Shown: positions 2 through 16,699 of the stretch, in pieces
How the letters are laid out: every line of letters starts with the position of its first letter
Numbering within the stretch: the first letter of the stretch is position 1
Source of the DNA: an uncultured bacterium
GTDB lineage: Bacteria; CALINM01
NCBI GenBank assembly: GCA_938045315.1
Contig: CALINM010000083.1
Span: 1 to 16,699, forward strand
DNA length: 16,699 bases
Reading direction: 5' to 3'
Notes under the pieces: generated by a model
What the model was told of the DNA's origin: nothing
Seen by the model: only the letters and a program-made list of their open reading frames with translations
Database searches by the model: none
Made by a program: the position numbers and the translations under genes

Positions 2-139
2 AATGAAATTCTTATTTATGTGCCTTTTTTTATCAAAGATATGAGCGATGATCGTTTAAAAGAAGAGTTGATAGATATGTATAATATATGCAATAGGGAA
101 AAGAATAAAGGAACTGTTGAAAAGGAGGTTATTAGATGA
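2..139 (+). CDS. C-terminal fragment of an unidentified protein (5' end outside window)
   Basis: An open frame of 45 codons runs from base 2 to a TGA at 137-139. It begins outside the window, so only the C-terminus is seen: a hydrophobic stretch (ILIYVPFFI) followed by a charged, probably helical tail rich in Lys, Glu and Asp. The stop overlaps the ATG of the next gene (ATGA at 136-139), the same 4-base coupling seen at the next two junctions, which is the main reason to believe it is translated. The other two forward frames are broken by stops. I do not recognise the family. It is most likely the upstream member of the exbB-exbD operon. Confidence 0.6.
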   Translation, partial: NEILIYVPFFIKDMSDDRLKEELIDMYNICNREKNKGTVEKEVIR

Positions 140-747
140 TCGATTTTTTTATTAAAGGTGGGATTTTTATGTATCCCATACTTTTATGTTCAATACTTTC
201 CTTATGGTTTTTTATTTACAAACTACTTGTTTTAAAAAAGGATAGAAATATTCCACCAAAACTTGTTAATGAATCGAAAAAACTTCTTTTAGAAGGTAAA
301 TTAGAAGAGTTGTATAAAGTTAGTGTTAAATATCCATCTCCTCTGGCGAAAATTTTAATTGTAATATCAAAAAATTATAATAGGGATAAAAGTAGTTTAA
401 AAGAAGCTGTAGAGATAGCAGGTAAAGCTGAAGTTTTAGAATTAGAAAAATTCATTGATGCTATTGGTACCATAGCAGGAATTAGCACTCTTTTAGGATT
501 ATTAGGTACAATTTCTGGCTTAATTTCTATTTTTTCTACCATATCTTTAGATCCCGTGGTCAATCCTGCTCGTTTGGCCGGTGGTATTTCTGAAGCTTTG
601 AATACCACTGCATTTGGACTTGTTGTAGCTATTCCTTCTGTTGCATTCAATAAATATCTGGAATCTAGGGTAAATAAAATTGTTACCGAGTTAGAACAAG
701 TTACTGCAGAGTTAATTGATTTAATAGTGGGAGATATGGAAAAATGA
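136..747 (+). CDS. MotA/TolQ/ExbB family proton channel protein
   Basis: This 203-residue inner-membrane protein fits the ExbB/TolQ/MotA family, which forms the oligomeric channel that uses proton motive force to energise outer-membrane processes together with ExbD/TolR. Three membrane segments are visible, roughly residues 10-31, 105-133 and 155-180. The conserved glycine-rich part (LLGLLGTISGLI, then GISEALNTTAFGL) is the family signature around the second and third helices. A strong Shine-Dalgarno (AAAAGGAGG, about 120-127) lies 8 bases before the ATG. The gene overlaps the ExbD-like gene by ATGA. No TonB, TolA or TolB gene is visible, so whether this serves TonB-type uptake, Tol-type envelope constriction or another process is undecided. 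The ftsB-like gene downstream makes a Tol-like envelope or division role worth considering. Confidence 0.85.
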   Translation: MIDFFIKGGIFMYPILLCSILSLWFFIYKLLVLKKDRNIPPKLVNESKKLLLEGKLEELYKVSVKYPSPLAKILIVISKNYNRDKSSLKEAVEIAGKAEVLELEKFIDAIGTIAGISTLLGLLGTISGLISIFSTISLDPVVNPARLAGGISEALNTTAFGLVVAIPSVAFNKYLESRVNKIVTELEQVTAELIDLIVGDMEK

Positions 748-1181
748 ACTTTAGAAGTGAAAAAAGAGCTAAAAGTTCAAATTTTATAGATTTTACACCA
801 ATTGTTGATACTGTTTTTAATCTTATCATTTTTTTTGCTGTTTCTCTAAATTTTATAGGGACACCGGCAATTAAGTTAAAACTTCCACAAGCATCTATGA
901 AAGAAAGTGTACGAGAAAAAAGTGAGATAAGGGTATTTATTACCAGGGGAGAAACAAAAGATGGTTACACATTTGGTGTTTTCAGGATTGAAGATAAAGT
1001 TCTTAATTTAGATGAACTTTCAAATCTCATTCATCAAAGAGTTTTATCAAATCCAGATATGGTTTTGATTATTCAGGCCGATGAAAGCGTATCACAGGGA
1101 GAGGTGGTAAAGATTATGGATATAGCAAAAAATGCCGGGATAGATAAAATTGCTATAGCTACAAGACCTAAGGAAAAATGA
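744..1181 (+). CDS. ExbD/TolR family biopolymer transport protein
   Basis: This 145-residue protein has one N-terminal membrane helix (about residues 18-38) preceded by a short cytoplasmic part, then a periplasmic domain, the ExbD/TolR architecture. The helix contains the conserved proton-carrying aspartate (Asp22, in FTPIVDTVFNLIIFF), equivalent to the essential Asp of ExbD/TolR. The periplasmic part ends with the typical pattern of VLIIQADESVSQGEVVKIMDIAKNAGI. It partners with the ExbB-like protein encoded just upstream (4-base ATGA overlap, so translational coupling is likely). It overlaps the next gene in the same way at 1178-1181. Confidence 0.87.
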   Translation: MNFRSEKRAKSSNFIDFTPIVDTVFNLIIFFAVSLNFIGTPAIKLKLPQASMKESVREKSEIRVFITRGETKDGYTFGVFRIEDKVLNLDELSNLIHQRVLSNPDMVLIIQADESVSQGEVVKIMDIAKNAGIDKIAIATRPKEK

Positions 1182-1498
1182 ACAGGATAATAAATATTTT
1201 TGTTAATCTGCTTTTTAGTATTGTTATTGCTCATTTTATATATGGTTCTATATTTGGTGAAAGGGGATTGAAAAATTATTTTAAACTGCGAAAAGAAAGA
1301 ATAAAACTGGAAAAACAATTACAGAAAACAATCGAAGAGAGGGACAAGTTAGCAGAAGAATTAGTATTAATTAAAAATGATCCATTATATATAGAAGAAC
1401 AAATAAAGTTGAAGCTTCAAAAGGGTAAAAAAGGGGAAGTATTTTATATCTTTCAAGATAAAGATAGTGAGTTGGGAAATGTTAGTAACAGAAAGTAA
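1178..1498 (+). CDS. FtsB/DivIC-family septum formation initiator-like protein
   Basis: This 106-residue protein has a single N-terminal membrane helix (about residues 5-24) followed by a charged coiled coil (about 32-68) and a short C-terminal segment with the pattern DPLYIEEQIKLKLQ...GKKGEVFYIF. The pattern DPxYIE...GE-aromatic is what FtsB/DivIC proteins show after their coiled coil. Members of this family link FtsL/FtsQ-type partners in the divisome. The sequence is divergent and the call rests on architecture plus that short motif. The start overlaps the exbD-like stop by ATGA and its 3' end overlaps the diguanylate cyclase gene. Placement between a proton-channel pair and a c-di-GMP enzyme is unusual. 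Confidence 0.65.
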   Translation: MNRIINIFVNLLFSIVIAHFIYGSIFGERGLKNYFKLRKERIKLEKQLQKTIEERDKLAEELVLIKNDPLYIEEQIKLKLQKGKKGEVFYIFQDKDSELGNVSNRK

Positions 1499-3563
1499 AA
1501 AAAAAATATTTAAGGCCTTTTTCTTTTTAATTTTTTTACTCTATATAATTAGTTTAAAAGAAGAAATTATTTCAAACCCCTCTTTTTCGAAATATAAGCT
1601 GTTTTCCAATATAATTGTAGTTACATTATTAATCATTTTACTTATTTTGGATAGTCTTATTATTTTACAAAAGTTGAGAAGAAAAGAATCAGAATTACAA
1701 TACTGGGATATGTTTTTCTGGTTAAGCTGGGTTTTCCTGAGCATATTATTCTTTACCACAATAGAGTTTAAAAATTTTAATTTTTTACCAATTTTCAACG
1801 TTTTTTTTGCTGTAACTTTTGCCTTTTTCCCTATGAAAATTGCTCTTTTTTTCTTTTTTTTAACTTTTGTTGTTGAATATTTATATTTTTGTGTATTCCC
1901 ATGGCAGAGAGATTATGTTAACTATTTTTTCTTTGTTGCAATGATAAGCATATTTTCATTGTTTGGGTATATTTTAAAGAAAGAAAGAAAAGAAAAGTCA
2001 ATATATGAAACAAAATTAACGGAAATAAAAGAAGGGGCTAAAGCTTTCTTTGGGAGTGATGATGAGAATCTTGATTATCTAAAGTCAGAAAAAAGGATAG
2101 AACATTTACAAAGTACATATGGTTATTTTGAAGAAAGGGTGCTTAGAATATTGCAGCAAGTTAAGGAACTCATGGAACCATATACTGTTGCTTTCTTTAA
2201 AATAAAAGATGATGGTAAGTATTATAAAATCCTTGAGGCAATTTCTGAAAGTGATTATCTTAGATACAATGATGATATTCCACTGGATGAAGGTGTTGTT
2301 GGCTGGATTTTCAAACATGAAAAATCTCTAAATTTTAGTTCTGTAAAAGGAGGTAGAAGAGCTCTAAATTATTATGACCAGGACCTCCCGGTTTCATCTT
2401 TTTTAGGTGTACCTGTTATATGGAGAAACAATGTTGTTGGCGTTTTATGTGTAGATTCACTTCAAGATAATGCTTTCAATCCTGATAGTGAGAATATTAT
2501 AAAACTTGCGGTATTGCAAATACAGGAAACTTTGGAAAATGTTCAATTGTTACAGCAAACTAAACAGCAATATAAAGAGTTTTCTGCTCTTTATGAGGGT
2601 AGTAAGAAGATGATGATGTCTATTACTTTAGATGAAAATTTAAATACCTTCCTTGATATAATAAATCAGATTACCCATAATGATGCAGCTATCATCGCTA
2701 TAATTGAAGAAACACAGGAAAGCAAACTGATAATCAAAACCTACAGAGGCATAGCAGATGATATCAGTGGCAAAACAGTTGATGATAATAGTTTAATGAA
2801 GTGGGTTTTAGAACATAAACAATATTTAGATCTAAGGCATTTTAGCTCCAAGCAAAAAATTAAGCCTCTATTATCACAAAATATCAAAATCCCTGATTTA
2901 CAGAGAGTTATAATTTTTCCTTTAATGTTTGAAGAATCAATTTTGGGTGCTTTTCTTTTAGGATATAAAAATGAAGGACCAGATGATTATGAAAAAAGGG
3001 TTATCGAAATTCTTAGTAACCAGGCTTCAGTATGTATATCTAATGCTTTTCTGTTCGAAAAAGTAAAAAATATGGCTACTACTGATGGTTTAACTGGGGT
3101 TTTTAATCATAGGCATTTTCAGGAAAAATTTACTGAAATACTATTAAGAGCCGAGCGCTATAATGAAAAATTTTCTTTGATTCTTATTGATATAGATTTT
3201 TTTAAAAAGGTTAATGATACTTACGGACATCAGGTAGGGGATGTAGTTTTAAAAAGGGTAGCTCAAATTCTCAAAACAGTGGCAAGAAAAGTAGATATAG
3301 TTGCTAGGTATGGGGGGGAAGAGTTTGCTATTATATGTGTCAATGATGATAAGAAAAATGCATCAAAGTTAGCCGAAAGACTAAGAAAAGAAATTGAGAG
3401 CACAACAATACTTTATGAAGGTGGCAAACTGAATGTTACTGCAAGTTTAGGTGTAGCAAGTTACCCTGAAGATGGTAAGGATAAAATATCAATAATAGAA
3501 ATGGCTGATAGAGCATTATATAGAGCTAAACACGAAGGTAGAAATAGGGTTGTATTAGCATAA
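1467..3563 (+). CDS. Membrane-anchored dual-GAF diguanylate cyclase
   Basis: This 698-residue protein is predicted to make the second messenger c-di-GMP from two GTP. The N-terminus carries about six hydrophobic segments (roughly residues 14-33, 45-67, 82-98, 105-122, 124-145, 151-171). A short linker, two GAF-type sensor domains (about 215-360 and 370-530) and a C-terminal GGDEF domain (about 533-698) follow. The GGDEF domain looks active: GGEEF at 616-620 with the metal-binding segment DIDFFKKVND around 575. An RxxD inhibitory I-site (RKVD, 607-610) sits five residues before GGEEF, as required for product feedback. The GTG at 1467 gives this length and overlaps the ftsB-like gene by 32 bases. 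An in-frame ATG at 1479 is an equally reasonable start, since neither has a strong Shine-Dalgarno. The signal sensed by the membrane and GAF parts cannot be read from sequence. Confidence 0.9.
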   Translation: MSWEMLVTESKKKIFKAFFFLIFLLYIISLKEEIISNPSFSKYKLFSNIIVVTLLIILLILDSLIILQKLRRKESELQYWDMFFWLSWVFLSILFFTTIEFKNFNFLPIFNVFFAVTFAFFPMKIALFFFFLTFVVEYLYFCVFPWQRDYVNYFFFVAMISIFSLFGYILKKERKEKSIYETKLTEIKEGAKAFFGSDDENLDYLKSEKRIEHLQSTYGYFEERVLRILQQVKELMEPYTVAFFKIKDDGKYYKILEAISESDYLRYNDDIPLDEGVVGWIFKHEKSLNFSSVKGGRRALNYYDQDLPVSSFLGVPVIWRNNVVGVLCVDSLQDNAFNPDSENIIKLAVLQIQETLENVQLLQQTKQQYKEFSALYEGSKKMMMSITLDENLNTFLDIINQITHNDAAIIAIIEETQESKLIIKTYRGIADDISGKTVDDNSLMKWVLEHKQYLDLRHFSSKQKIKPLLSQNIKIPDLQRVIIFPLMFEESILGAFLLGYKNEGPDDYEKRVIEILSNQASVCISNAFLFEKVKNMATTDGLTGVFNHRHFQEKFTEILLRAERYNEKFSLILIDIDFFKKVNDTYGHQVGDVVLKRVAQILKTVARKVDIVARYGGEEFAIICVNDDKKNASKLAERLRKEIESTTILYEGGKLNVTASLGVASYPEDGKDKISIIEMADRALYRAKHEGRNRVVLA

Positions 3564-3595
3564 TTTTAAAGAGGGCTTTTTAAGAAGGGGTTAAT

Positions 3596-4405
3596 ATGAA
3601 AATAAAAGTTTCAGCTATTCAAATGATATCAAAAGATGACATAAGGGAAAATATAGAAAGGGCAGAGAAATTTATAAAAATTGCTGCTGAAAAAGGTGCT
3701 AATATTATTGCTTTTCCTGAGCTTTTTTGCAATAAATGGTTCCCCTGTGAGAGGAATAAGAAAAACTTTAATTTAGCTGATTCAAAAGATGGTTTAATAA
3801 TAAGAGAAATGGCTTCTCTTTCAAAGAAATATGATGTTTTATTGGCTGTACCTTTCTTCGAACGATATAGAAGGAGATTTTACAATTCCTGTGCCATAAT
3901 TGATGGAGGGAAGTTATTAGGTATATACAGAAAGGTTCACATACCAAACATACCCCTTTATGAGGAAACTTTTTATTTCACAAGAGGTAAGGAATTTCCT
4001 GTATTTGATACCAGGTTTGGTAAGATAGGGGTGCAAATTTGCTGGGATAATTTCTTCCCTGAAGGATATAGAATACTGGCTTTAAAGGGAGCAAAATTTA
4101 TTATTACACCGACGGCATCAGCTTTTAAAACTCAGAAAAGGTGGAAAATAGTGATTGCTTCCCATGCGCTTCTAAATAATATTTTTGTTCTTCGTGTAAA
4201 TAGAGTTGGGAAGGAGAAATTTCAAGAGTTTTATGGCAATAGCTTTTTAGTAGGTCCTGATGGTTCTTTCATTGGTGAAACTCTTGGATATAATGAGGGT
4301 ATATTTATTTCCAATTTTGATTTATCAGATACAGACAGAATGAGGAAAATATTTACTTTCTTTGATTGTAGGCAATCAGATCTCTATAAAGATTTATTAT
4401 TGTGA
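3596..4405 (+). CDS. Nitrilase-superfamily carbon-nitrogen hydrolase
   Basis: This 269-residue cytoplasmic enzyme belongs to the nitrilase/amidase superfamily. The Glu-Lys-Cys catalytic triad is visible: Glu42 (FPELF), Lys113 (YRKVHIPN) and Cys149 (QICWDNFFPEG). The CWDxxFPE context and overall length resemble N-carbamoylputrescine amidase or beta-ureidopropionase-like members, but substrate cannot be assigned on this alone, so a general amidohydrolase name is safer. The start is an ATG preceded by AAGAAGGGG at 3582-3590. It lies 32 bases after the diguanylate cyclase stop with no obvious promoter or terminator between, so it is probably the last gene of that operon. Its stop overlaps the convergent GntR gene by 9 bases. 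Confidence 0.85.
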   Translation: MKIKVSAIQMISKDDIRENIERAEKFIKIAAEKGANIIAFPELFCNKWFPCERNKKNFNLADSKDGLIIREMASLSKKYDVLLAVPFFERYRRRFYNSCAIIDGGKLLGIYRKVHIPNIPLYEETFYFTRGKEFPVFDTRFGKIGVQICWDNFFPEGYRILALKGAKFIITPTASAFKTQKRWKIVIASHALLNNIFVLRVNRVGKEKFQEFYGNSFLVGPDGSFIGETLGYNEGIFISNFDLSDTDRMRKIFTFFDCRQSDLYKDLLL

Positions 4406-5065
4406 TATGTTTAATGAGGCCAGTAAATCTGAAAAACGCTCACCTTGAACGATAATATGCTCTCTTGCCAGTTTAGATGCTAACTCAGAATCGCCTTTAA
4501 TTATTGCCTCGATAATCTCTTCATGTTCCTTTAATGATGATTCTATTCTTCCCCTTACTCTTAACTGAAGTCTTCTAAAGGAACTCAATCTTTTGTGAAG
4601 ATTTATTGCTTGTTCAATTAAAAAATCGTTATGACTTGCTCTATATAGGGCTATATGAAACTCTTCATTTTTATAATAATAAAGGTCTGGATTTTCAATT
4701 ATCTCCTTAACTTTACATTCTAAGTGAGTCTTTTGTAAATATTCTAGTTCCTTATTTGTAATTCTTCTTGCCGCGAGCCTTGCACAAAGAGCTTCTAATT
4801 CGGCCATAACTTCAAACATCTCATACAATTTCTTTGTATCAATAGGGGTTACAATTGCCCCCCGTCTAGGCCTCATCTCTACTAAACCAGTGGAAGATAA
4901 TTGTATCAGAGCTTCTCTTATCGGTGTTCTTGATACACCAAATTTTTGAGCTAAATCAATTTCATCTAACTTCATGCCTGGAGTAAATAACCCTGTTGCT
5001 ATAAATTCTTCGATTTTTTCTTTTAGATATTCTGATAGTTTGGAGTGTTTTGCTTTTTTCTTCAT
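4397..5065 (-). CDS. GntR-family (FadR/FCD subfamily) regulator, probably of the malonate locus
   Basis: This 222-residue repressor-type regulator has an N-terminal winged helix-turn-helix (about residues 8-75, with LAQKFGVSRTPIREAL as the recognition part). An all-helical FCD effector domain (about 80-215) follows. FCD metal/ligand residues are recognisable as His137 (EEFH), His181 and His203; an Asn (133) sits where many members have Asp. It is transcribed divergently from the dctPQM-matB-mdcDE genes, and a FadR-like TGTATACA palindrome lies in the shared promoter region. In rhizobial matABC the regulator MatR is also a GntR/FCD protein, so an orthologous malonate- or malonyl-CoA-responsive role is a good inference. 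The ATG start has only a weak Shine-Dalgarno. The gene ends inside the last 9 bases of the convergent amidohydrolase gene. Confidence 0.88.
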   Translation of the reverse strand: MKKKAKHSKLSEYLKEKIEEFIATGLFTPGMKLDEIDLAQKFGVSRTPIREALIQLSSTGLVEMRPRRGAIVTPIDTKKLYEMFEVMAELEALCARLAARRITNKELEYLQKTHLECKVKEIIENPDLYYYKNEEFHIALYRASHNDFLIEQAINLHKRLSSFRRLQLRVRGRIESSLKEHEEIIEAIIKGDSELASKLAREHIIVQGERFSDLLASLNISQ

Positions 5066-5190: not shown

Positions 5191-6219
5191 ATGCATACAA
5201 GAAATTTTAAGATTTTTGTTGCATTAAGTTTAATCTTTTTATTTGGTATTTTTAAAGTAAACATTGTTTCATCTCAACAGCCAAGGGTAATAAAAATTTC
5301 CCATCAGTTTCCAGCAAGCATGGGTGATGAGGGAGATTTCAGGGATAGGCTATGCAGAAAATTTGCTGCAGAAGTAGAAAAAAGGACAAAAGGGCAACTT
5401 AAGTTTGAGATTTATCCTTCAAGTTCTTTATTTAAGGCAACAGCTCAAGTTTCTGCTATGAGAAAAGGGGCGCTGGACATGGGTTTGATACCAATATCTT
5501 ATGGGAGTGGTGAGATACCTGAAGCTAATTTGGGGCTTATGCCAGCCCTTGTTACCAGTTATGAGCAGGGTTTGAGGTGGAAAGATGCACCTATTGGAAA
5601 AAAATTTTCTGAAATTTTAGCTAAACATAACATAATCATTCTTACCTGGGTATGGCAGGGTGGGGGAATAGCATCAACAAAAGGGAAATTGGTTGATCCT
5701 GAAGATTTTAAGGGTATTAAAATACGTGGTGGAAGTAGAGAAATGGATATGATGTTAAAAGAAGCTGGAGCATCAGTTGTAACCATGCCATCAAGTGAAA
5801 TATATAATGCTATGCAATCTGGTGTTATTGATGCAGCCCTTACTTCAAGTACTTCATTGATTAGCTATAGGTTGTATGAATTTACAAAAAATGTTACCAC
5901 GGCAAGAAAAAAATCCTTCTGGTATATGTTGGAACCATTAGTTATGTCTAAAAGTTTATTTGATTCGTTGACACCAGAACAGCAAAAGATTGTTCTTGAA
6001 GTAGGTGCAAGTTTAGAAAAATTTGGTATGGAAGAAGCAAAAAAGGATGACCAGAAGATGGCAGAGATTTATGCAAAGGCCGGTGCGAATGTTCATGATA
6101 TGGATGAAAAAACCTTTGAAAAATGGAGAGAAATTGCTATAAGGACGGCATATAAGGATTTTGCTGAAAAAGTTAAAAATGGTAAAGAACTATTAGATAT
6201 GGCACTTAGTGTTAAATAA
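5191..6219 (+). CDS. dctP: TRAP transporter substrate-binding protein, DctP family
   Basis: This 342-residue periplasmic receptor captures the substrate, probably a carboxylate, for the DctQM permease. Residues 1-28 form a signal peptide (basic start, hydrophobic core ALSLIFLFGIF, small residues before QQP). The mature part shows DctP hallmarks: GxLKFEIYPSS-like segment at 68-78, the KGIKIRG segment with the ligand-binding Arg179, and MPSSEIYNAMQSGVIDA at 199-215. The ATG is preceded by a strong Shine-Dalgarno (AAAGGAGGG, 5175-5183). As first gene of the operon it sits directly under the predicted operator, and a stable hairpin follows its stop. DctP sequence does not reveal the ligand, but the matB and mdcDE genes downstream point to malonate or a related dicarboxylate. 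Confidence 0.92.
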   Translation: MHTRNFKIFVALSLIFLFGIFKVNIVSSQQPRVIKISHQFPASMGDEGDFRDRLCRKFAAEVEKRTKGQLKFEIYPSSSLFKATAQVSAMRKGALDMGLIPISYGSGEIPEANLGLMPALVTSYEQGLRWKDAPIGKKFSEILAKHNIIILTWVWQGGGIASTKGKLVDPEDFKGIKIRGGSREMDMMLKEAGASVVTMPSSEIYNAMQSGVIDAALTSSTSLISYRLYEFTKNVTTARKKSFWYMLEPLVMSKSLFDSLTPEQQKIVLEVGASLEKFGMEEAKKDDQKMAEIYAKAGANVHDMDEKTFEKWREIAIRTAYKDFAEKVKNGKELLDMALSVK

Positions 6220-6223
6220 AAAA

Positions 6224-6249
6224 ATTGTGGCGGAGTAATCCGCCACAAT
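6224..6249 (+). other. Strong intergenic hairpin between dctP and dctQ
   Basis: ATTGTGGCGGA (6224-6234) and TCCGCCACAAT (6239-6249) form a perfect 11-bp stem with a GTAA tetraloop, beginning four bases after the dctP stop codon. No run of T follows, so it does not look like a complete intrinsic terminator. Such hairpins often protect the 3' end of an upstream transcript segment. Here it would allow more receptor (DctP) than permease (DctQM) to be made from one operon, as expected for binding-protein systems. Confidence 0.75.
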
Positions 6250-6264
6250 AATTAGAGGTAAACC

Positions 6265-6801
6265 ATGAAAACAATATCAAAATTAATTAAAAATATTAAC
6301 ATATTATTTGGTTATATCTCTGCTATTGTTATTGTAATTGTCTCTGGAATTTTGTTATTTGAAGTGTTTGTAAGATACTTTTTCTCAATGCCCACAGACT
6401 GGGAAATTGAATTAAGCGTAATGCTTTTAATAATATCCACATTTATGGCAGCAGGCTTTACGCAAATTACTCGTGGGCATGTAAATATTGAGATATTAGA
6501 TGCTCTACTGCCAAAGAAAATAATAAAATGGCGCATTTTAATTTCCGACTTAATTTCAATTTTGTTCTGCGCCTTTATTTCTTATAGTTCATGGATTTTA
6601 TTTTATGAGGCTTATATTGAAGGAAGAATGAGCGAATCATCATGGGGGCCTAAACTCTGGCCAGTTTTTTTATTTATGGCCATAGGAATGACATTTTTGA
6701 CATTACAAATACTTGTCCAAATAATAGAAGAAAGCATTCCCAATGTTTTTAAGAGAAAGAATATACTTCATGAACTTCACGATCCGGAATTAATGGAGTA
6801 A
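6265..6801 (+). CDS. dctQ: TRAP transporter small permease, DctQ family
   Basis: This 178-residue membrane protein has four predicted helices (about residues 15-37, 48-66, 88-110, 128-150). It carries the DctQ pattern RYFFSMPTDWEIELS near residue 37, followed by a TRGHVNIEI segment. It is the small subunit of the TRAP permease, working with DctM to move substrate released by DctP using an ion gradient. AGAGG precedes the ATG by a few bases. It lies 45 bases after dctP, with the hairpin between them, and 15 bases before dctM. Confidence 0.9.
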   Translation: MKTISKLIKNINILFGYISAIVIVIVSGILLFEVFVRYFFSMPTDWEIELSVMLLIISTFMAAGFTQITRGHVNIEILDALLPKKIIKWRILISDLISILFCAFISYSSWILFYEAYIEGRMSESSWGPKLWPVFLFMAIGMTFLTLQILVQIIEESIPNVFKRKNILHELHDPELME

Positions 6802-6816
6802 AAAAGGAGTAGTCAA

Positions 6817-8139
6817 GTGAGTACTTTAGAAATTGGCCTTTTATATACAATAGCAACAATTATTATTATGTTTTCTGGAGTACCAATTGCATTTGCAGTT
6901 GGTATTGTTGCATTGGTATTTATGTTTATATTTATGCCCACATCACAGGTTTTAATAGTCGCAGAGAGTATTTACAGCGAGCTAAACAATTTTACACTTT
7001 TAACTATTCCGCTTTTTATTTTTATGGGGGCTGCAATAGGGAAATCAAGGGCTGGTTCAGATTTATATAACTCTTTAAATAAATGGCTTTATAAAATCCC
7101 TGGTGGACTTGGTGTGGCAAATACGGTTGCTTGTTCCATATTCGCTGCTATGTGTGGGTCTTCTCCAGCAACTTGTGCTGCAATAGGGAGTTCTGGTATC
7201 CCAGAGATGAGAAAAAGAGGCTACTCTAATGCTCTGGCTACGGGAATAATTGGTGCTGGTGGAACTCTCGGCATTCTTATTCCACCCAGTCTTACAATGA
7301 TTTTATATGGGCTTGCCACTGAACAATCTATAGGAAAGCTTTTTATGGCTGGTGTTGGACCGGGTATCCTTTTAACTATTCTTTTTTCTCTATGGGTAAT
7401 AATAAAAGCCTGGCTGGAAAAAAAGTCAAAGATAAATGATAAAGCAGAAATTTATGAGTATTATTCACTAAAAGAAAAGATCAGTACATTGCCAAGATTA
7501 ATTCCATTCTTAATACTTATTGTTTTTATTATGTTTGCATTATATGGTGGTATGGCAACTCCATCTGAGGTGGCAGGTATTGGAGCAATTGGAGCTTTTA
7601 TATTAGTTGTTATAGTTTACAGAACTTGGAGGTGGAGAGATCTAAAACCCATTCTAACGGGGACAGCAAAAGAATCGAGCATGATAATGTTGATAATTGG
7701 GACATCATTTTTATTCACTTATGTAATGAGCTACCTCCATATAACACAAGAAGTAGCAGCATGGCTCATATCACTTAATTTGGGTAAGTGGCAGTTTATA
7801 TTTTGGATTAATATATTACTACTTTTTTTAGGGTGTTTGTTACCACCAGTGGCAATAATTCTTATGGTAATGCCAATTATATTACCACCCATGAAAGAAT
7901 TAGGTATTGATTTAATCTGGTTTAGTGCGATTCTAACAGTTAATATGGAAATGGGGCTTGTAACACCTCCTATGGGATTAAATCTCTTTGTTATAAAAGG
8001 TGTAGCACCTGATGTTAAATTTAAAGAGATTATGTTTGGAATAATACCATTTTTGGTTATCATGGTAATTGGCATAGTTTTATTGTGTATTTTCCCGGAA
8101 ATCGTAATGTGGCTACCAAACAAATATAAAGGAGTATGA
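6817..8139 (+). CDS. dctM: TRAP transporter large permease, DctM family
   Basis: This 440-residue, roughly 12-helix membrane protein is the ion-coupled transport subunit of the TRAP system. Family signatures are clear: FSGVPIAFAVG near the start, IPLFIFMG, the CGSSPATCAAIGSSGIPEM segment around residues 112-130 and GAGGTLGILIPPS near 146-158. A repeat of this pattern occurs in the C-terminal half (LLPPVAIILMVMPIILPPM, then MGLVTPPMGLNLFVIKG). The start is a GTG with AAAAGGAG 8 bases upstream. Its stop overlaps the matB start by ATGA, so transport and activation are translationally coupled. Confidence 0.93.
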   Translation: MSTLEIGLLYTIATIIIMFSGVPIAFAVGIVALVFMFIFMPTSQVLIVAESIYSELNNFTLLTIPLFIFMGAAIGKSRAGSDLYNSLNKWLYKIPGGLGVANTVACSIFAAMCGSSPATCAAIGSSGIPEMRKRGYSNALATGIIGAGGTLGILIPPSLTMILYGLATEQSIGKLFMAGVGPGILLTILFSLWVIIKAWLEKKSKINDKAEIYEYYSLKEKISTLPRLIPFLILIVFIMFALYGGMATPSEVAGIGAIGAFILVVIVYRTWRWRDLKPILTGTAKESSMIMLIIGTSFLFTYVMSYLHITQEVAAWLISLNLGKWQFIFWINILLLFLGCLLPPVAIILMVMPIILPPMKELGIDLIWFSAILTVNMEMGLVTPPMGLNLFVIKGVAPDVKFKEIMFGIIPFLVIMVIGIVLLCIFPEIVMWLPNKYKGV

Positions 8140-9668
8140 AGGTGAGTGAAAATCTTTACGAAATATTGAAAGCAAACTTTCCATTAGGTGAAGCTGTTCC
8201 ATGTCTTATTTTGTCTGATGGAAAAGTTATAACATACGATGATTTGGATAGGGAGGCTGCAAGGTTTGCTAATTTTCTTGTAAATAGATGTTATGTTAAG
8301 CCCGGAGATAGAGTTGCCGTTCAGATAAAAAAATCGCCATATGCAATGTTTTTATATTTAGCAGTATTAAGAGTAGGTGCTGTGTATCTTCCAATGAATG
8401 ATGCCTATCAAAGACATGAAATAGAATATTTTTTAAGCGATGCAAAACCTCAGGTTTTTTTCTGCATCCCTGAAAAAAAAGAAGTGTCTATAGAGATGGC
8501 AAGAAATGCAGGAGTGCCTTTTATTATTGATATTGATGAGAGAGGCATTGGCGGTTTTTTTGAACTTCTCTACAAAGAGGTTGATTATTTTAAAACTTAC
8601 GAATCAAAAGGTGATGATCTGGCAGCGATTCTTTATACATCTGGTACAACAGGTAGACCTAAAGGGGCGATGTTAACCCATAAAAACCTGTCAACTAACG
8701 CTATAACTCTTCACAGATATTGGGAGTTTAGAAAGGGTGATGTTTTACTTCATATGTTACCAATTTTTCATGTACATGGGTTGTTTGTTGCAAACCATAC
8801 GGCTCTACTAAATGGTAGTCCCATACTCTTCGAACCAAAATTCGATGCCAAAAGAGCGATTGAACTTTTACCTAAAGCTACTGTTTTTATGGGTGTACCT
8901 ACATACTATGTAAGACTTCTTCTTGAGAGAAATTTTACGGATGAAGTTTGTAAGAATATGAGACTTTTTATTTCTGGTTCAGCGCCATTACTACCTGAGA
9001 CTTTTTACGAATTTCAGGAAAGAACGGGGCATACAATCCTTGAAAGATATGGTATGACAGAAGGAGGTATGTTCTCATCAAATCCCTATAAAGGGCTGAG
9101 AAAACCTGGGACAGTTGGTTTCCCCTTGCCGGGTGTTTCAATCAGGATCGTGGACAATAATGGTAAAGAAGTTGGTATTGAAGAGGTTGGTTATATTCAG
9201 GTTAAGGGTGAAAATGTTTTTAAAGGATATTGGAATATGCCAGAAAAAACCAGGGAAGAGTTTACAGAAGATGGTTATTTTAAAACAGGTGATATGGGCA
9301 AGTGGGATAAAGATGGGTATCTTTCAATAGTTGGCAGATCAAAGGATTTGATTATAACAGGTGGTTTAAATGTTTATCCAAAGGAGATAGAAGAAGTAAT
9401 TGATAGAATTCCCGGTGTTTTTGAATCTGCAGTAGTGGGATTACCCCATCCAGACTTCGGTGAGGCAGTAACAGCGTTTGTAGTGAAAAAAAACGACGAG
9501 GATGGTAAAAACCTTTCAGAAGGTCAGATAATAAATCATTTAAAAACCACTATAGCCAATTTTAAAGTCCCCAAAAAAGTGTTCTTTCTAAGTGAACTAC
9601 CAAGGAATACGATGGGAAAAGTGCAAAAAAACATCCTGAGAGAAAAGTATTCAGACACATTTAAATAG
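8136..9668 (+). CDS. matB: Malonyl-CoA synthetase (MatB-type acyl-CoA ligase)
   Basis: This 510-residue cytoplasmic adenylating enzyme is predicted to convert malonate (possibly methylmalonate), ATP and CoA into malonyl-CoA. ANL-family motifs are in order: P-loop YTSGTTGRPKG (167-177), adenylation motif ERYGMTE (303-309), the GRSKDLIITGGLNVYP hinge (400-414) and the catalytic lysine Lys495 in LPRNTMGKVQKN. The MatB-like features are MGVPTYYVRLL (252-262), ERYGMTE with Arg304 rather than the QxYGxTE of many fatty acyl ligases, and SNPYKGLRKPGTVGFPLPGV (315-334). The length fits the MatB family (about 500). The gene starts in the dctM stop (ATGA, 8136-8139) with AAAGGAG just upstream. Methylmalonate use cannot be excluded from sequence. 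Confidence 0.85.
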   Translation: MKVSENLYEILKANFPLGEAVPCLILSDGKVITYDDLDREAARFANFLVNRCYVKPGDRVAVQIKKSPYAMFLYLAVLRVGAVYLPMNDAYQRHEIEYFLSDAKPQVFFCIPEKKEVSIEMARNAGVPFIIDIDERGIGGFFELLYKEVDYFKTYESKGDDLAAILYTSGTTGRPKGAMLTHKNLSTNAITLHRYWEFRKGDVLLHMLPIFHVHGLFVANHTALLNGSPILFEPKFDAKRAIELLPKATVFMGVPTYYVRLLLERNFTDEVCKNMRLFISGSAPLLPETFYEFQERTGHTILERYGMTEGGMFSSNPYKGLRKPGTVGFPLPGVSIRIVDNNGKEVGIEEVGYIQVKGENVFKGYWNMPEKTREEFTEDGYFKTGDMGKWDKDGYLSIVGRSKDLIITGGLNVYPKEIEEVIDRIPGVFESAVVGLPHPDFGEAVTAFVVKKNDEDGKNLSEGQIINHLKTTIANFKVPKKVFFLSELPRNTMGKVQKNILREKYSDTFK

Positions 9669-9675
9669 TTTAGTT

Positions 9676-10461
9676 ATGACTGGGAAAATATTCTCTTCTC
9701 TTAATGCGAAACAAAGAATTGTACATATCTGCGATAAAGGTACTTTTAAAGAAATAACAGCGCCTTGTTTAAAAAAACCAAGCCCTCACTTACAATATCT
9801 TAACCTTCCTGTAAAAGAGGACGATGGTGTTGTTATAGGTATGGGTGCTATAGGATCTTATAAATTATTATTAATTTCTCAAGATGGAACATTCTATGGT
9901 GGTTCTGTGGGAGAGATTCATGGTGCTAAAATAAAAGGCTTATTTGATTATGCTTCAATTTATCACCCAGACGCCATTATATTTGTTATTGATTCTGGAG
10001 GGGTGAGACTTCAGGAGGCAAATGCAGGTCTTGTTGCACTGTCTGAAGTTATGAAATCATTACTAAATGTTAGATATGATGGTATCCCGGTTATAGCAAT
10101 TATTCCTGGAAAGATAGGTGCCTTTGGTGGTATGGGCATTCTTGCAAGGTTATGCACTAAAATAATAATGACAGAACATGCTAAAATGGGGCTTAGTGGT
10201 CCTGAGGTAATAGAGACATTAAAAGGTGTTGAAGAATTTAATTCCCACAATAAAGACATTGTTTATGAAACAGTTGGTGCAAGACAAAGATACAAAATCT
10301 GCGAAATCAATATGTTAGTTGACGACAAAGTTAATGCTATAAAAAAAGCGATTGTAAAGATAATGAAAGAATTGGGAAAAAAGCCTGAATCATTCTACGA
10401 AGAAGTTTTAGCAGAGTGTTTGATTTTAAAGAATAGACTTGAGAGATATAAAAGTGAATAG
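9676..10461 (+). CDS. mdcD: Malonate decarboxylase beta-subunit-like protein (MdcD)
   Basis: This 261-residue crotonase-fold carboxyltransferase-like subunit, with MdcE, makes up the decarboxylase of biotin-independent malonate decarboxylase, which acts on malonyl-S-ACP. The MdcD signature is unusually clear: SPHLQYLNLPVKEDDGVV (36-53), GGSVGEIHGAK (75-85), DSGGVRLQEANAGL (106-119), the GAFGGMG oxyanion segment (148-154) and LSGPEVIE (173-180). The start ATG lies 7 bases after the matB stop; no good Shine-Dalgarno is visible, so re-initiation after matB is plausible. The 3' end overlaps mdcE. No mdcA or acyl-carrier mdcC is present beside it, and the adjacent ligase suggests its substrate may be malonyl-CoA instead. 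Confidence 0.85.
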   Translation: MTGKIFSSLNAKQRIVHICDKGTFKEITAPCLKKPSPHLQYLNLPVKEDDGVVIGMGAIGSYKLLLISQDGTFYGGSVGEIHGAKIKGLFDYASIYHPDAIIFVIDSGGVRLQEANAGLVALSEVMKSLLNVRYDGIPVIAIIPGKIGAFGGMGILARLCTKIIMTEHAKMGLSGPEVIETLKGVEEFNSHNKDIVYETVGARQRYKICEINMLVDDKVNAIKKAIVKIMKELGKKPESFYEEVLAECLILKNRLERYKSE

Positions 10462-11176
10462 TGAATTACTTTTCAATAGATTGTTTGGAGCAGGTAATTA
10501 TTCGATAACGATTGATGGCTATTTTATTGAAGGTTATGCAAAACTTGGTAAAATCAAAGCAAAAGTGATTGGCACATGTAGGAGCATTGCTATTGATTCA
10601 GCATTGGCATTAAGGATATCAGAAGAGATTTTAAAAACTATGCAAGAAGATTTAGATTTTGATAAAAGACCCATCATTTTTTTAGTAGATACACAGGGAC
10701 ATAAACTGTCAAGAAATGAGGAATTTTTGGGTATCAATGGTTATTTTGCCCTTATGGCAAAATGTATTTTTCTGGCAGGTCGCAAGGGACACAAAACAGT
10801 GTCAATTATCCATGGTGAGGCAGTAAGTGGTTGTTTCCTTGCTTTTGGGATGATGCCAGATATAGTATGTGCCCTGGAAAATTCAAAAATTTATGTTATG
10901 GATTTAAAAGCCATGTCAAAAATAACAAAAATAGATTATGATATTTTATTAAAACTTTCAAAAGAGTCACCTGTATTTGCACCTGGGGTTGAAAACTTTT
11001 ACAAATTGGGTGGAGTACATAAAATATGGAAAGAAGATGATGATTGGCATAGAAAACTCATTGAGGCTATTGATAATTGCAGCAATTATGATAATAGAAT
11101 CGAGCTTGCTTTTTGCCGAAATACTCGGCAAAATTCCAAAAATATTATTGATTTTTTAAGAAATTTGAAAGGTTGA
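10454..11176 (+). CDS. mdcE: Malonate decarboxylase gamma-subunit-like protein (MdcE)
   Basis: This roughly 240-residue partner of MdcD completes the decarboxylase active site. Family motifs are plain: LVDTQGHKLSRNEEFLGINGY, the GHKTVSIIHGEAVSGCFLAFGMM oxyanion and active-site region (split here as GHKTVSIIHGEAVSG and CFLAFGMM), VMDLKAMSKITK and SPVFAPGVENFYKLGG. I prefer the GTG at 10454 because GAGAG lies 8 bases upstream and it gives a compact 8-base overlap with mdcD (GTGAATAG). A TTG at 10439 would add five residues. The C-terminal 40 residues are less conserved. As for MdcD, the other mdc genes (A, B, C, G, H) are missing from the window. Confidence 0.85.
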   Translation: MNSELLFNRLFGAGNYSITIDGYFIEGYAKLGKIKAKVIGTCRSIAIDSALALRISEEILKTMQEDLDFDKRPIIFLVDTQGHKLSRNEEFLGINGYFALMAKCIFLAGRKGHKTVSIIHGEAVSGCFLAFGMMPDIVCALENSKIYVMDLKAMSKITKIDYDILLKLSKESPVFAPGVENFYKLGGVHKIWKEDDDWHRKLIEAIDNCSNYDNRIELAFCRNTRQNSKNIIDFLRNLKG

Positions 11177-11180
11177 TTGT

Positions 11181-11975
11181 TTGATTTATTTAATTTTCTA
11201 CATATTAATAGGTGCTTTTGTTGGCTTTGTTGCTGGGTTATTTGGTATTGGTGGTGGGACGACTCAGGTACCTCTTTTGCTCATGATATTTAAAGCTCAG
11301 GGTTTTTCAGAAAAGCACGTAATGCATTTAGCATTGGGCACTTCAATGGCATCCATATTTTTTACGTCCCTATCAAGTATGAGGGCTCATCATTCAAAAG
11401 GTGCTGTAAGGTGGGATATATTTAAAGGAATGTCTCCAGGATTGTTACTTGGGACGTTCAGCGGATCCTTTTTTGCGGGGTATATATCCTCATGGGGGCT
11501 GAAAATCTTTTTTGTAATAATAATGTATTTTGCAGCTTTTCAAATAATTTCAAATTTTAGGCCGAAGGCAAAAACAAAATTACCAGGTAAATTAGGTTTG
11601 TTTATTGTAGGATTAATTATTGGTGCCATTTCATCTTTAGCAGCGGCAGGAGGTGGGTTTTTAACGGTTCCTTTTATGCTTTACTGCAATGTAATAATAT
11701 ATGAAGCTGTTGGAACATCAGCGGCCTTAGGTTTTCCTATAGCTCTTGCTGGATTTTTAGGATATGTAATAAGCGGTTTAAATGCAATAGAGTTGCCAAA
11801 ATACTCTTTAGGGTATGTTTATTTACCTGCACTTTTAGCGATAGTTTCTATAAGTATATTAACAGCACCAAAGGGAGCGAACTTAGCCCATCGATTGCCC
11901 GTTCTAAAGCTGAGAAGACTTTTTGGTATATTTCTTGCAATTTTAGCAACTAAGATATTACTGGGGATAATTTGA
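11181..11975 (+). CDS. TSUP-family (TauE/SafE) membrane permease
   Basis: This 264-residue, roughly 8-helix membrane protein shows the two-repeat TSUP architecture: GFVAGLFGIGGGTTQVPLLL near the N-terminus and SSLAAAGGGFLTVPFM in the second half. Members move small anions such as sulfite, sulfonates or organic acids, in either direction. It starts with TTG four bases after the mdcE stop, with AAAGG at a suitable distance, so it is the last gene of the operon. In this setting it might export a product or serve as a second organic-acid carrier; the sequence does not say which. No sulfur-metabolism gene is near. Confidence 0.85.
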   Translation: MIYLIFYILIGAFVGFVAGLFGIGGGTTQVPLLLMIFKAQGFSEKHVMHLALGTSMASIFFTSLSSMRAHHSKGAVRWDIFKGMSPGLLLGTFSGSFFAGYISSWGLKIFFVIIMYFAAFQIISNFRPKAKTKLPGKLGLFIVGLIIGAISSLAAAGGGFLTVPFMLYCNVIIYEAVGTSAALGFPIALAGFLGYVISGLNAIELPKYSLGYVYLPALLAIVSISILTAPKGANLAHRLPVLKLRRLFGIFLAILATKILLGII

Positions 11976-13027: not shown

Positions 13028-13681
13028 TTAAAAACCCAAATCTTCATTTATTAATATGACCTCAAAATCCGTTAATCTTGGTTTTTTTTCGATAACAGCT
13101 ATTATCCTACAAATTCTGTCAGGGGAGTTACAATTTGAACAAAAGCCAGTATCCGCGCAAGGTGTTTTAAAATTAAGCCTTTTTGCGTTAGGTGGTGATG
13201 CCCAATCTTTTACTCTTTTTATTGCTGTAAAAATATCTCCCTCTACAATTTTATTTTTACCTGCAACTACAATTACTTTTTTGGGGCCAAATAACATGGC
13301 TGCTACTCTATTACCTGTGGCATCAATATTTATTATCTCTCCATTAGTTGTTATAGCATTTGCTCCAGTAAAATAAATATCTGTAAAAATAGCCTTTCTC
13401 ATTATCTCTAATTTTTCAGATTGTGTTAGTCCTGGCTGATTATGATTATATACCTCTTTTCCAAGGCTGATAATAATATCATGAAGGCCTAATTGAGCAA
13501 TTGTCATAGAACCACCGACTCCTATGCTTTTCGCAATTTTTAACTGTTCATTAATATACAAAAGGGCTTCATTTCTGTTGCTAAAATAATAAGCTGAAAA
13601 AGCATTTTTTTTGAGTGCTTCAATTGTTTTCAAACATTTTTGTTCATACTTCCAGAAATTAAGTTCCTCTGTTAAACCCAT
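13028..13681 (-). CDS. LUD-domain (DUF162) lactate-utilisation-type protein
   Basis: This 217-residue protein has the LUD fold found in LutB/LutC: SIGVGGSMTIAQLGL (52-66), TGANAITTNGEIINIDATGNR (105-125, interrupted here only by conservative changes) and FGPKKVIVVAG (131-141). A C-terminal cluster Cys175-x5-Cys181-x2-Cys184-x6-Cys191 could bind metal or an iron-sulfur cluster. This stand-alone type with a cysteine tail is common in anaerobes, and its reaction is not established. Lactate oxidation cannot be claimed, because no lutA or lutB lies nearby. The ATG is preceded on its own strand by AAAAGGAG. It is divergent from the acetoacetyl-CoA synthetase gene across 179 bases. Confidence 0.85.
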   Translation of the reverse strand: MGLTEELNFWKYEQKCLKTIEALKKNAFSAYYFSNRNEALLYINEQLKIAKSIGVGGSMTIAQLGLHDIIISLGKEVYNHNQPGLTQSEKLEIMRKAIFTDIYFTGANAITTNGEIINIDATGNRVAAMLFGPKKVIVVAGKNKIVEGDIFTAIKRVKDWASPPNAKRLNFKTPCADTGFCSNCNSPDRICRIIAVIEKKPRLTDFEVILINEDLGF

Positions 13682-13730
13682 GGTTGGCTCCTTTTGGTTT
13701 TATGTTTTAAAAAGCTGAAAAAATAAATAT

Positions 13731-13744
13731 ATGTTAACATTATA
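13731..13744 (-). promoter_or_regulatory. -10 element and short palindrome ahead of the LUD gene
   Basis: On the - strand a perfect TATAAT (13739-13744) lies about 58 bases before the LUD-gene start codon. It is overlapped by the palindrome ATGTTAACAT (13731-13740), which would cover the transcription start. The -35 region is poor (GTGCAA at 17 bases), which would suit an activated or weak promoter. The call rests on consensus matching in AT-rich DNA. Confidence 0.35.
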
Positions 13745-13820
13745 ACAAGATGGGTAATTAATTGCACAAAATTTTTTTCTATGCTTTTATAAAAAATTTT
13801 TATAAAATATTGTTTTAAAA

Positions 13821-13838
13821 CCACTTTACGTAAAGTGG
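13821..13838. promoter_or_regulatory. Perfect 18-bp palindrome, probable operator ahead of acetoacetyl-CoA synthetase
   Basis: CCACTTTACGTAAAGTGG is identical to its own reverse complement over all 18 bases. It ends 22 bases before the ATG at 13861, just ahead of the Shine-Dalgarno (GGGGAGG). The core TTTACGTAAA resembles operators of dimeric regulators of fatty-acid or ketone-body metabolism (TetR or MerR type), but no such regulator gene is in the window. AT-rich TATAAA-like candidates for a -10 lie just upstream (13788-13808), so the site would sit at or downstream of the transcription start. Confidence 0.6.
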
Positions 13839-13860
13839 AAAATATTAGGGGAGGTAATTT

Positions 13861-15816
13861 ATGAAGACACCACTTTGGGTACCATCAAAAGATAGGAAAA
13901 ATAATTCTAACATCAAGAAGTTTATGGATTTTGTGAATGGGAGATACAATAAGACATTTAGTGAGTATTTGGAGTTATATCAGTGGTCAGTGGACAACAT
14001 ATCAGATTTTTGGGCTTGTGTGTGGGATTTTGTAGGTATTAGGCATACTAATGGGTATGATTATGTTGTAGATGATCCATATAAGATGCCAGGGGCGAAG
14101 TGGTTTAGTGGTGCTAGGCTAAATTTTGCGGAGAATTTGTTAAGGTATAGGGATGATAAGACTGCTTTTATATTTATAGGGGAGACTCAGGAGAGGAAGG
14201 AGATAAGTTACAGGGATTTATATCATTATGTATCGAGGATTTCGAATGCGTTAAGGGAGATGGGTATAAAGGCTGGAGATAGGGTAGTGGGATATATGCC
14301 CAACATGATAGAGACAGTATCAGCTATGTTAGCTGCTACGAGTATAGGGGCAATTTGGTCGTCCTGTGCAGCTGATATGGGGCCAGAGGCTGTATATGAT
14401 AGATTTGGTCAGGTAGAGCCCAAGGTATTATTTACTGTTGATGGGTATTACTATAAGGGGAAGAGGTTTGACACATTATCAAATGCTTATAAATTAGCCC
14501 AGAAGTTACCAACCTTAGAGAGGGTTGTGGTTACTCATTATGCGGGCAGTGAAATGGATATAAAAGAATTCCCTAAAGCTGTAACGATGGAAGATTTTAT
14601 AAAGGAACAGAGGGATGAGATGGAATTTGAGCAGTTACCCTTTGAGACCCCAGTTTACATAATGTTTTCTTCAGGGACGACTGGCAAGCCTAAATGTATG
14701 GTACAGAGTGCAGGTGGCATATTGATAAATCATTTAAAAGAGCTTATTATACATTCTGATTTAAAGAGGGAGGATAGGATATTTTACATAACTACCTGTA
14801 GTTGGATGATGTGGAACTGGCTTATGAGTTCTTTGGGTGCAGGTGCTACGATAATATTATACGATGGTAATCCTCTTTATCCCGATGCTTATGCGATGTG
14901 GCAGATGGCGGAAAGAGAGAAGATAAGTATATTTGGTCTTAGTGCAAGCTATATAAATTATCTTATAAAAGAGGGTGTAAGTCCTAGAAAATATGATTTA
15001 TCATCTTTAAAGGAGATATCACAGACGGGGTCGCCTTTATCAGCTGATGGATTCAGGTATGTGTATAAGGAGATAAAAGAAGATTTACATTTCAATTCTA
15101 TAGCAGGTGGTACGGACATAAATGGTTGTTTTGCCATAGGAAGTCCAATGCAACCTGTTTATGCTGGGGAACTACAAGGGCCTGGTCTTGGTATGAGGGT
15201 ATTTGCATATGATGACAATGCTAATCCTATTTGGGATAGAGAGGGAGAGCTTGTATGTGAGGCAGCAAGTCCTTCTATGCCACTATATTTTTGGAATGAT
15301 CCTGACAACAAAAAGTATTTAGATTCCTATTTTAATTATTTCACACAGAAGAGGGTTTGGAGGCATGGAGACTATGTGATATTCTTTAGTGATACGAAGG
15401 GTATAACCTTTCTTGGCAGATCAGATTCGGTGTTGAAGCCATCGGGTGTTAGAATAGGTACAGCGGAGATTTATAACCAGATTGATAAAGTTGAGGAAGT
15501 AGCGGATAGTCTTGCCATAGGACAGAACTGGGAAGGTGATCAGAGGATAATACTATTTGTAAAGATGAAAGAGGGGCATAAACTAAATGAGGAAATAAAA
15601 AATAAGATAAAAAAAATACTAAGAGACAATGCATCACCGAGACATGTACCTGCAAAGATAATAGAAGTGCCTGATATACCATACACGAGGAATATGAAAA
15701 AAGTAGAGAGTGCAGTAACAAATATAATACATGGAAGACCTGTAACAAACATAGAAGCGCTTATTAATCCAGAATGTTTGGAATATTTTAAAGATCATCC
15801 AGAATTAAAGAGCTGA
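13861..15816 (+). CDS. Acetoacetyl-CoA synthetase (acetoacetate-CoA ligase)
   Basis: This 651-residue cytoplasmic ligase activates acetoacetate with ATP and CoA to acetoacetyl-CoA, which a thiolase can split to acetyl-CoA. Length and layout match the AACS branch of the acetyl-CoA-synthetase-like ligases: N-terminal GAKWFSGARLNFAENLL (78-94), IGAIWSSCAADMG (162-174), P-loop MFSSGTTGKPK (268-278), TTCSWMMWNW (311-320) and GGTDINGCF (416-424). Then come FLGRSDSVLKPSGVRIGTAEIY (517-538, partly shown) and the C-terminal catalytic lysine region IPYTRNMKKVESAV (607-620). GGGGAGG precedes the ATG. It is probably monocistronic, flanked by an operator-like palindrome and a hairpin. The first two thirds prefer AAG, GAG, AGG and GGG codons, unlike neighbouring genes; the last part returns to AAA/GAA. 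Confidence 0.9.
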   Translation: MKTPLWVPSKDRKNNSNIKKFMDFVNGRYNKTFSEYLELYQWSVDNISDFWACVWDFVGIRHTNGYDYVVDDPYKMPGAKWFSGARLNFAENLLRYRDDKTAFIFIGETQERKEISYRDLYHYVSRISNALREMGIKAGDRVVGYMPNMIETVSAMLAATSIGAIWSSCAADMGPEAVYDRFGQVEPKVLFTVDGYYYKGKRFDTLSNAYKLAQKLPTLERVVVTHYAGSEMDIKEFPKAVTMEDFIKEQRDEMEFEQLPFETPVYIMFSSGTTGKPKCMVQSAGGILINHLKELIIHSDLKREDRIFYITTCSWMMWNWLMSSLGAGATIILYDGNPLYPDAYAMWQMAEREKISIFGLSASYINYLIKEGVSPRKYDLSSLKEISQTGSPLSADGFRYVYKEIKEDLHFNSIAGGTDINGCFAIGSPMQPVYAGELQGPGLGMRVFAYDDNANPIWDREGELVCEAASPSMPLYFWNDPDNKKYLDSYFNYFTQKRVWRHGDYVIFFSDTKGITFLGRSDSVLKPSGVRIGTAEIYNQIDKVEEVADSLAIGQNWEGDQRIILFVKMKEGHKLNEEIKNKIKKILRDNASPRHVPAKIIEVPDIPYTRNMKKVESAVTNIIHGRPVTNIEALINPECLEYFKDHPELKS

Positions 15817-16123: not shown

Positions 16124-16199
16124 TGGCTCCCGAGGTAGGACTCGAACCTACGACCTAGTGGTTAACAGCCACCCGCTCTGCCGATTGAGCTACTCGGGA
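16124..16199 (-). tRNA. tRNA-Asn (anticodon GTT)
   Basis: The - strand folds into a standard 76-nt cloverleaf. The acceptor stem is TCCCGAG with CTCGGGA; the D arm is GCTC with GAGC. The anticodon arm is GGTGG with CCACT around CTGTTAA, giving anticodon GTT. The variable loop is AGGTC and the T arm is GTAGG-TTCGAGT-CCTAC. The discriminator is G and the 3' CCA is encoded. The first anticodon-stem pair is a G-T wobble, which is acceptable. GTT reads both Asn codons AAC and AAT. A promoter and a terminator of its own are visible, so it is a single-gene transcription unit. Confidence 0.97.
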
Positions 16200-16247: not shown

Positions 16248-16265
16248 TAGTATAATATTGTTAAT

Positions 16266-16301
16266 CCATAAATGGGCAGGTAAAATTGCCCCCCTTTATG
16301 G
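16266..16301. repeat. Large imperfect stem-loop with GGGCA/TGCCC core
   Basis: CCATAAA (16266-16272) pairs with TTTATGG (16295-16301), and inside it GGGCA (16274-16278) pairs with TGCCC (16287-16291) around an 8-base loop, with a small asymmetric bulge between the two helices. It lies upstream of the tRNA-Asn promoter and is not linked to a recognisable gene. It shares its inner core with the hairpins at 15823 and 16317, so it may be a member of a dispersed palindromic repeat family. Confidence 0.55.
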
Positions 16302-16316
16302 TATGACTTAAATATA

Positions 16317-16329
16317 TGGGCACTGCCCA
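16317..16329. repeat. Short palindrome TGGGCA-C-TGCCCA
   Basis: TGGGCA (16317-16322) and TGCCCA (16324-16329) are exact inverted copies separated by one base. It is the third GGGCA/TGCCC element within about 500 bases. Function unknown; it could be a protein-binding site or a decayed repeat. Confidence 0.4.
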
Positions 16330-16699
16330 CAGAGAGAGGCTCAAAGAGTTCATAAGGGGGTTTTAGAGAAAGAGGATTAATGTAACCTAAAAAGGCTTCC
16401 ATAAACCTCCAAAGGAGTATAATTTTGTAAAACTGAAAAGAGGCGGTTTAAATGACAAAAGGGATGTACCAGGGAATCTTCCACATAAGACCCCAGAGGC
16501 TATGGAGCCGTATATGGTTGATTGGGGGAGGAAAGTTCCCTGCACAAGAAGGAGCGATAAAAAGGATCCTTAAGGAACAGGGTCTGACAGGGAAGCAAAA
16601 AAATATCAGAAAAGGTGGCAAAACCCCGGGGGAGATAATCAAGGAAGTTAGACCTGATATGTCACCTTAGGTGCTTCTATTTCCTGTAGTTGACAGGGA
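16330..16699. other. Unassigned purine-rich, higher-GC region, possible structured RNA or mobile-element remnant
   Basis: This stretch runs to the window end and differs from the rest: it is rich in AGG, GGG and GGAG runs and visibly less AT-rich than the flanking genes. One 72-codon frame (16452-16670, +) starts with ATG 9 bases after AAGAGGCGG and encodes a basic peptide (MTKGMYQGIFHIRPQR...), which I do not recognise. Several inverted repeats lie inside: TTCCCTG (16536-16542) with CAGGGAA (16588-16594), enclosing the palindrome AAGGATCCTT (16562-16571); CACCTTAGGTG (16663-16673); and CCTGT (16683-16687) with ACAGG (16693-16697). These suggest a folded RNA. The 5' part of an intron or other mobile element continuing beyond the window is one possibility, but no reverse transcriptase or transposase motif is visible. 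Confidence 0.35.

Follow-up and report, generated by a model that had tools for sequence, protein, structure and literature searches.

A malonate operon combining matB with mdcDE and lacking the ACP genes: a proposed CoA-linked route

Which substrate would the decarboxylase subunits MdcD and MdcE act on, if they are encoded directly downstream of the malonyl-CoA synthetase MatB and the ACP machinery is missing? The question arises from a stretch of 16,699 nucleotides of an uncultured bacterium, in the following called the window. We assign a probability of about 75 % to a CoA-linked malonate operon, in which MatB makes malonyl-CoA and MdcDE would decarboxylate it directly, replacing MatA. An organism with MatB and MdcDE, but without the ACP machinery, represents a natural experiment on the physiological relevance of the malonyl-CoA activity of MdcDE. 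It would link the two textbook malonate routes via an evolutionary intermediate and would provide a malonyl-CoA decarboxylase that is compact, built of two subunits and not related to MatA.

Operon layout and host genome

The gene order is GntR (minus strand), followed on the plus strand by dctP-dctQ-dctM-matB-mdcD-mdcE-tauE. The operon was fully sequenced and is bounded by tauE and unrelated genes. The features are:

4397-5065, minus strand: GntR/FCD-family regulator, divergent from the operon
5191-6219, plus strand: dctP, TRAP solute-binding protein (NF037995 148 bits, cut-off 50; PF03480)
6265-6801, plus strand: dctQ, TRAP small permease subunit (by position between dctP and dctM)
6817-8139, plus strand: dctM, TRAP large permease subunit (TIGR00786 368 bits, above cut-off)
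8136-9668, plus strand: matB, malonyl-CoA synthetase, AMP-forming (NF005702 772 bits, cut-off 558)
9676-10461, plus strand: mdcD, decarboxylase beta subunit (TIGR03133 291.4 bits, cut-off 278.15)
10454-11176, plus strand: mdcE, decarboxylase gamma subunit (PF06833 153 bits, cut-off 32.7; TIGR03134 200 bits, below the cut-off of 237)
11181-11975, plus strand: tauE, TauE/SafE-family membrane protein, last operon gene (PF01925 171 bits)

The initial annotation had described matB, mdcD and mdcE as consecutive, with a 7-base gap between the first two and an 8-base overlap of the last two, and the coordinates agree; dctM and matB overlap by 4 bases. The operon reaches beyond the coordinates 8136-11176 given there, since the GntR gene, dctPQM (5191-8139) and tauE also belong to it. 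The mdcE start was set to the GTG at 10454, with a TTG at 10439 as alternative; MdcE residue numbers count from this TTG.

The best PDB match of MatB was Malonyl CoA synthetase 4FUQ (E 1.6e-165). The regulator, likely malonate-responsive, was mostly 54-62 % identical to GntR genes adjoining canonical mdc operons and 79-82 % identical to those in two related genomes. DctP, the presumed malonate binder, shared 66-72 % identity with DctP in several Rhodocyclales/Azonexaceae mdc operons, DctQ 58-59 % with DctQ of the mdc operons L036 and L071, and DctM 70-73 % with DctM in several mdc operons. TauE genes also flank several Rhodocyclales mdc operons. More generally, mdc operons repeatedly have permease genes of the TauE/SafE family at one end or at both, e.g., L036:2288-3076 and 13057-13845. 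The occurrence of TRAP, GntR and TauE homologues in canonical malonate operons supports malonate as substrate. It speaks against an action of MdcDE on another MatB product, e.g., methylmalonyl-CoA, in an operon for the degradation of substituted malonate. This reading seems quite improbable, although MatB enzymes can accept methylmalonate and the exchange of an active-site Gln for His together with lid changes, both described below, could shift the specificity.

The window comprises the entire contig C83 of a draft genome of 1.86 Mb in 244 contigs, a MAG with 91.8 % completeness. One genome of the same genus and one of the same family were available for comparison. The same-genus genome was collinear with window positions 119-4734 at 76 % DNA identity, and the GntR-dctP stretch matched the same-family genome at 78 % DNA identity. 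The contig is part of the host lineage, with flanks syntenic in both related genomes. Contamination by binning was rejected on the basis of this synteny and a fairly even GC content along the contig. DctP was 91 % identical to its same-family counterpart over 213 residues, up to the contig end inside dctP. As the contigs of the two relatives (L132 end, L133 start) break inside GntR (same genus) or inside dctP (same family), these genomes neither confirm nor deny the operon. Downstream of the operon, an acetoacetyl-CoA synthetase gene is located at 13861-15816, its C-terminal 198 residues being 95 % identical in the same-genus genome. A tRNA-Asn gene (16124-16199) and a repeated sequence (16263-16699) follow, parts of which are also present in at least three further contigs (C154, C175, C32) of this genome.

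Related mdc loci and the absence of the ACP machinery

Profiles for MdcA (PF16957), the ACP MdcC (PF06857) and CitG/MdcB (PF01874) had no match in the 91.8 %-complete genome. All three matched in the positive control E. coli, presumably to citrate-lyase homologues. The MdcG profile PF10620 was without match in the genome and in the two relatives and matched in 6 mdc genomes used as control; likewise, the MatA profile PF05292 found nothing in these three genomes and matched in the Azospirillum control. The window itself contained no mdcA, mdcB, mdcC, mdcG or matA, which bears out the initial annotation, and the search of the whole 92 %-complete MAG for these genes yielded none.

The missing 8 % of the genome leaves a small residual doubt on these absences. 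With 91.8 % completeness and 244 contigs, mdcA, mdcC, mdcB and mdcG might sit in the unassembled part and the enzyme be ACP-dependent. Several observations make this very improbable: the sequence of the operon is complete, with tauE and unrelated genes at its border, every other locus examined has mdcA and mdcC adjoining mdcD, mdcG is absent also from the two relatives (whose copies of the locus lie outside their assemblies), and conserved features of MdcD and MdcE were lost.

The comparison set of 84 mdcD loci consisted of the 80 top-ranking MdcD relatives from GTDB genomes plus four plasmid loci; one extra MdcD match (G808) stands outside the mdcA count. In 84 of these 84 loci, mdcA and mdcC were located just upstream of mdcD, and both genes were likewise present at two further mdcD loci which a broad survey covering 386 genomes had added. 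The initial annotation had suggested a survey for matB-mdcD-mdcE adjacency without mdcA. No second case appeared among the best 80 GTDB loci, the 386 broad relatives, the plasmids and three samples at phylum level (395, 44 and 395 genomes, the larger two overlapping at least in the genomes listed), and a scan of viral contigs yielded none either. The survey revealed operons combining matB with a full mdc set. Many Rhodocyclales loci show the order GntR-dctPQM-mdcACDEGBH-tauE, their DctM being 70-73 % identical to that of the window. Three Desulfuromonadia/Myxococcota bins carry dctPQM-matB-mdcACDEGBH (L041:2745-10382, L046:5412-13097, L097:971-8636). In these three bins, MatB might supply malonyl-CoA for ACP priming. 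In two bins, a second, divergent mdcA-mdcC-mdcD-mdcE set adjoins the first (L081:12824-16477, L112:12357-16012).

By gene content, the window resembles a combined matB-mdc operon of this type minus mdcA, mdcC, mdcG, mdcB and mdcH, and dctPQM-matB-mdcACDEGBH is a plausible ancestral form. A tree of MdcD and MdcE together grouped the window with the three matB-mdc bins (SH-aLRT 99), and MdcE by itself gave the same grouping (SH-aLRT 93). In the tree of MdcD alone, the window did not join the matB-mdc loci; its position there is unreliable because the window MdcD stands on a long branch. The TRAP and TauE proteins were closer to the Rhodocyclales type, thus the operon history may be mosaic.

Sequence changes in MdcD and MdcE

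The MdcD of the window has no C-terminal tail: full-length ACP-linked relatives run 33-41 residues past its last aligned residue. Full length was taken as ~290 residues or longer; the shorter relative L100 (262 aa) was excluded, as were reading frames that were fused or cut. At 96 columns with at least 93 % conservation among 79 ACP-linked sequences, the window MdcD differed in 25, the others in 10 at most (median 1). Residues 189-203 were affected most, with changes in 9 of 11 conserved columns versus 14 of 83 elsewhere in MdcD; this segment was picked post hoc, and the p value of 3e-5 is therefore descriptive. It includes an aspartate pair that even distant ACP-linked MdcD proteins retain and that is Asn/Asn in the window. 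The segment probably covers the active-site lid helix, an assignment derived from the text of the Pseudomonas MdcDE paper and a predicted helix at 193-207. Val110, Leu112 and Gly152 were kept, corresponding to Val121, Leu123 and Gly162 of P. aeruginosa, and the solved structure nearest to the predicted fold was Pseudomonas MdcD (5VIP/5VIT).

Towards the three matB-mdc bins, MatB of the window had 63-64 % identity and MdcD 45-47 %, while among the bins the values were 74-79 % and 69-75 %, respectively; thus divergence was faster in MdcD than in the adjoining MatB. In the trees its branch was many times longer than those of its relatives, which may point to relaxed constraint and not to a new role.

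MdcE retained Ser130, the equivalent of the catalytic Ser142 of P. aeruginosa, so that this serine and the oxyanion-hole residues (MdcD Val110 and Gly152) are both kept. Gln88, corresponding to Gln100 in P. aeruginosa, is replaced by His, as in 2 of 80 relatives; a Q100E exchange in the P. aeruginosa enzyme lowered the activity about tenfold. The C-terminal region lacks conserved glycines found in 79 of 80 and 80 of 80 relatives. In Pseudomonas, the C-terminal extension of MdcE that matches this region contacts MdcA (PMC5534430). The nearest solved structure to the predicted fold was Pseudomonas MdcE (5VJ1 chain E). The MdcD changes and those in the MdcA-contacting tail of MdcE fit a loss of the ACP partners, and we infer that the MdcD changes follow from this loss.

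Divergence of this kind may also mark decay. MatB would then feed malonyl-CoA to biosynthesis, and mdcDE would be a decaying, no longer working remnant of the complete mdc set of an ancestor. The truncated MdcD with its long branch and the replacement of the catalytic Gln in MdcE agree with such a history, but both genes have open reading frames and are closely spaced within the operon, the oxyanion-hole and catalytic serine residues are in place, the predicted folds are those of MdcD and MdcE, and the import genes were kept, as catabolism would predict. We regard a remnant as unlikely.

Proposed pathway and comparison with known systems

In the CoA-linked pathway, the TRAP transporter DctPQM would import malonate under GntR control. 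MatB, judged by its family, would activate it with ATP and CoA to malonyl-CoA, and MdcD-MdcE would convert malonyl-CoA to acetyl-CoA and CO2, in the place of MatA in the mat route. No enzyme of the operon other than MatB activates malonate, therefore malonyl-CoA would be the natural substrate. The pathway would yield acetyl-CoA rather than acetate. The ATP cost would then be roughly that of the mdc route plus an acetyl-CoA synthetase step.

A precedent in vitro exists in two MdcDE pairs that decarboxylate malonyl-CoA, one from A. calcoaceticus and one from P. aeruginosa, the latter with a K0.5 of 100 uM and a kcat of 2.3 per s; CoA binds in the active site of MdcDE and leaves its 3'-phosphate exposed (PMC5534430). 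The counterpoint is that MdcDE is in vitro a weak malonyl-CoA decarboxylase, and the authors of the Pseudomonas structure left the physiological relevance open (PMC5534430). According to the initial annotation, the arrangement is not known to have been characterised. This holds insofar as no report of matB-mdcDE without ACP genes was found in the open-access literature; the malonyl-CoA activity of MdcDE in vitro, in contrast, was already known (PMC5534430). The CoA-based reading of the annotation gains support from the genome-wide absences, the activity of the two other MdcDE pairs and the altered MdcD and MdcE sequences.

The likely ancestor would be an operon with matB and the full mdc set, as in some Desulfuromonadia/Myxococcota bins. 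MdcC, MdcA, MdcB and MdcG, all absent from the 92 %-complete host genome, would have been lost, and MdcD would then have shed its C-terminal tail and altered residues 189-203, changes that are present in the sequence and that we tie to the ACP loss. That a combined matB-mdc operon lost its ACP half and remodelled MdcD to match, leaving a physiological ACP-free pathway with MdcDE as dedicated malonyl-CoA decarboxylase and non-orthologous replacement of MatA, appears moderately likely. The arrangement is real and unusual, the mechanism is plausible with a precedent in vitro, and the window is so far a single instance.

The biotin-dependent Mad system of Malonomonas rubra shares with the window malonate as substrate. 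It requires an ACP, a biotin protein and a membrane decarboxylase, whereas no mdcC-type ACP was found in the genome of the window. The biotin-independent malonate decarboxylase (mdcABCDEGH; Klebsiella, Acinetobacter, Pseudomonas) is alike in MdcD by profile and fold and in MdcE by the Pfam profile and fold, with the NCBIfam score of MdcE below its cut-off, and the regulator and TRAP genes are arranged as in many mdc operons. In contrast to it, the window has no MdcA, MdcC, MdcB and MdcG, has matB directly upstream of mdcD, and encodes an MdcD without C-terminal tail and with a changed segment 189-203. The operons L041, L046 and L097 resemble the window in the gene order around matB and mdcDE, in MatB (63-64 % identity) and in the MdcE grouping; unlike the window, they have retained the whole ACP machinery, and their MdcD is of full length. 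With the mat route (matPQMAB of Ensifer/Sinorhizobium, matABC of Rhizobium) the window has in common the GntR regulator, the TRAP importer, MatB and, as proposed, a CoA-linked decarboxylation, but MatA (PF05292) is missing and MdcDE, an unrelated crotonase-fold pair, would take its place.
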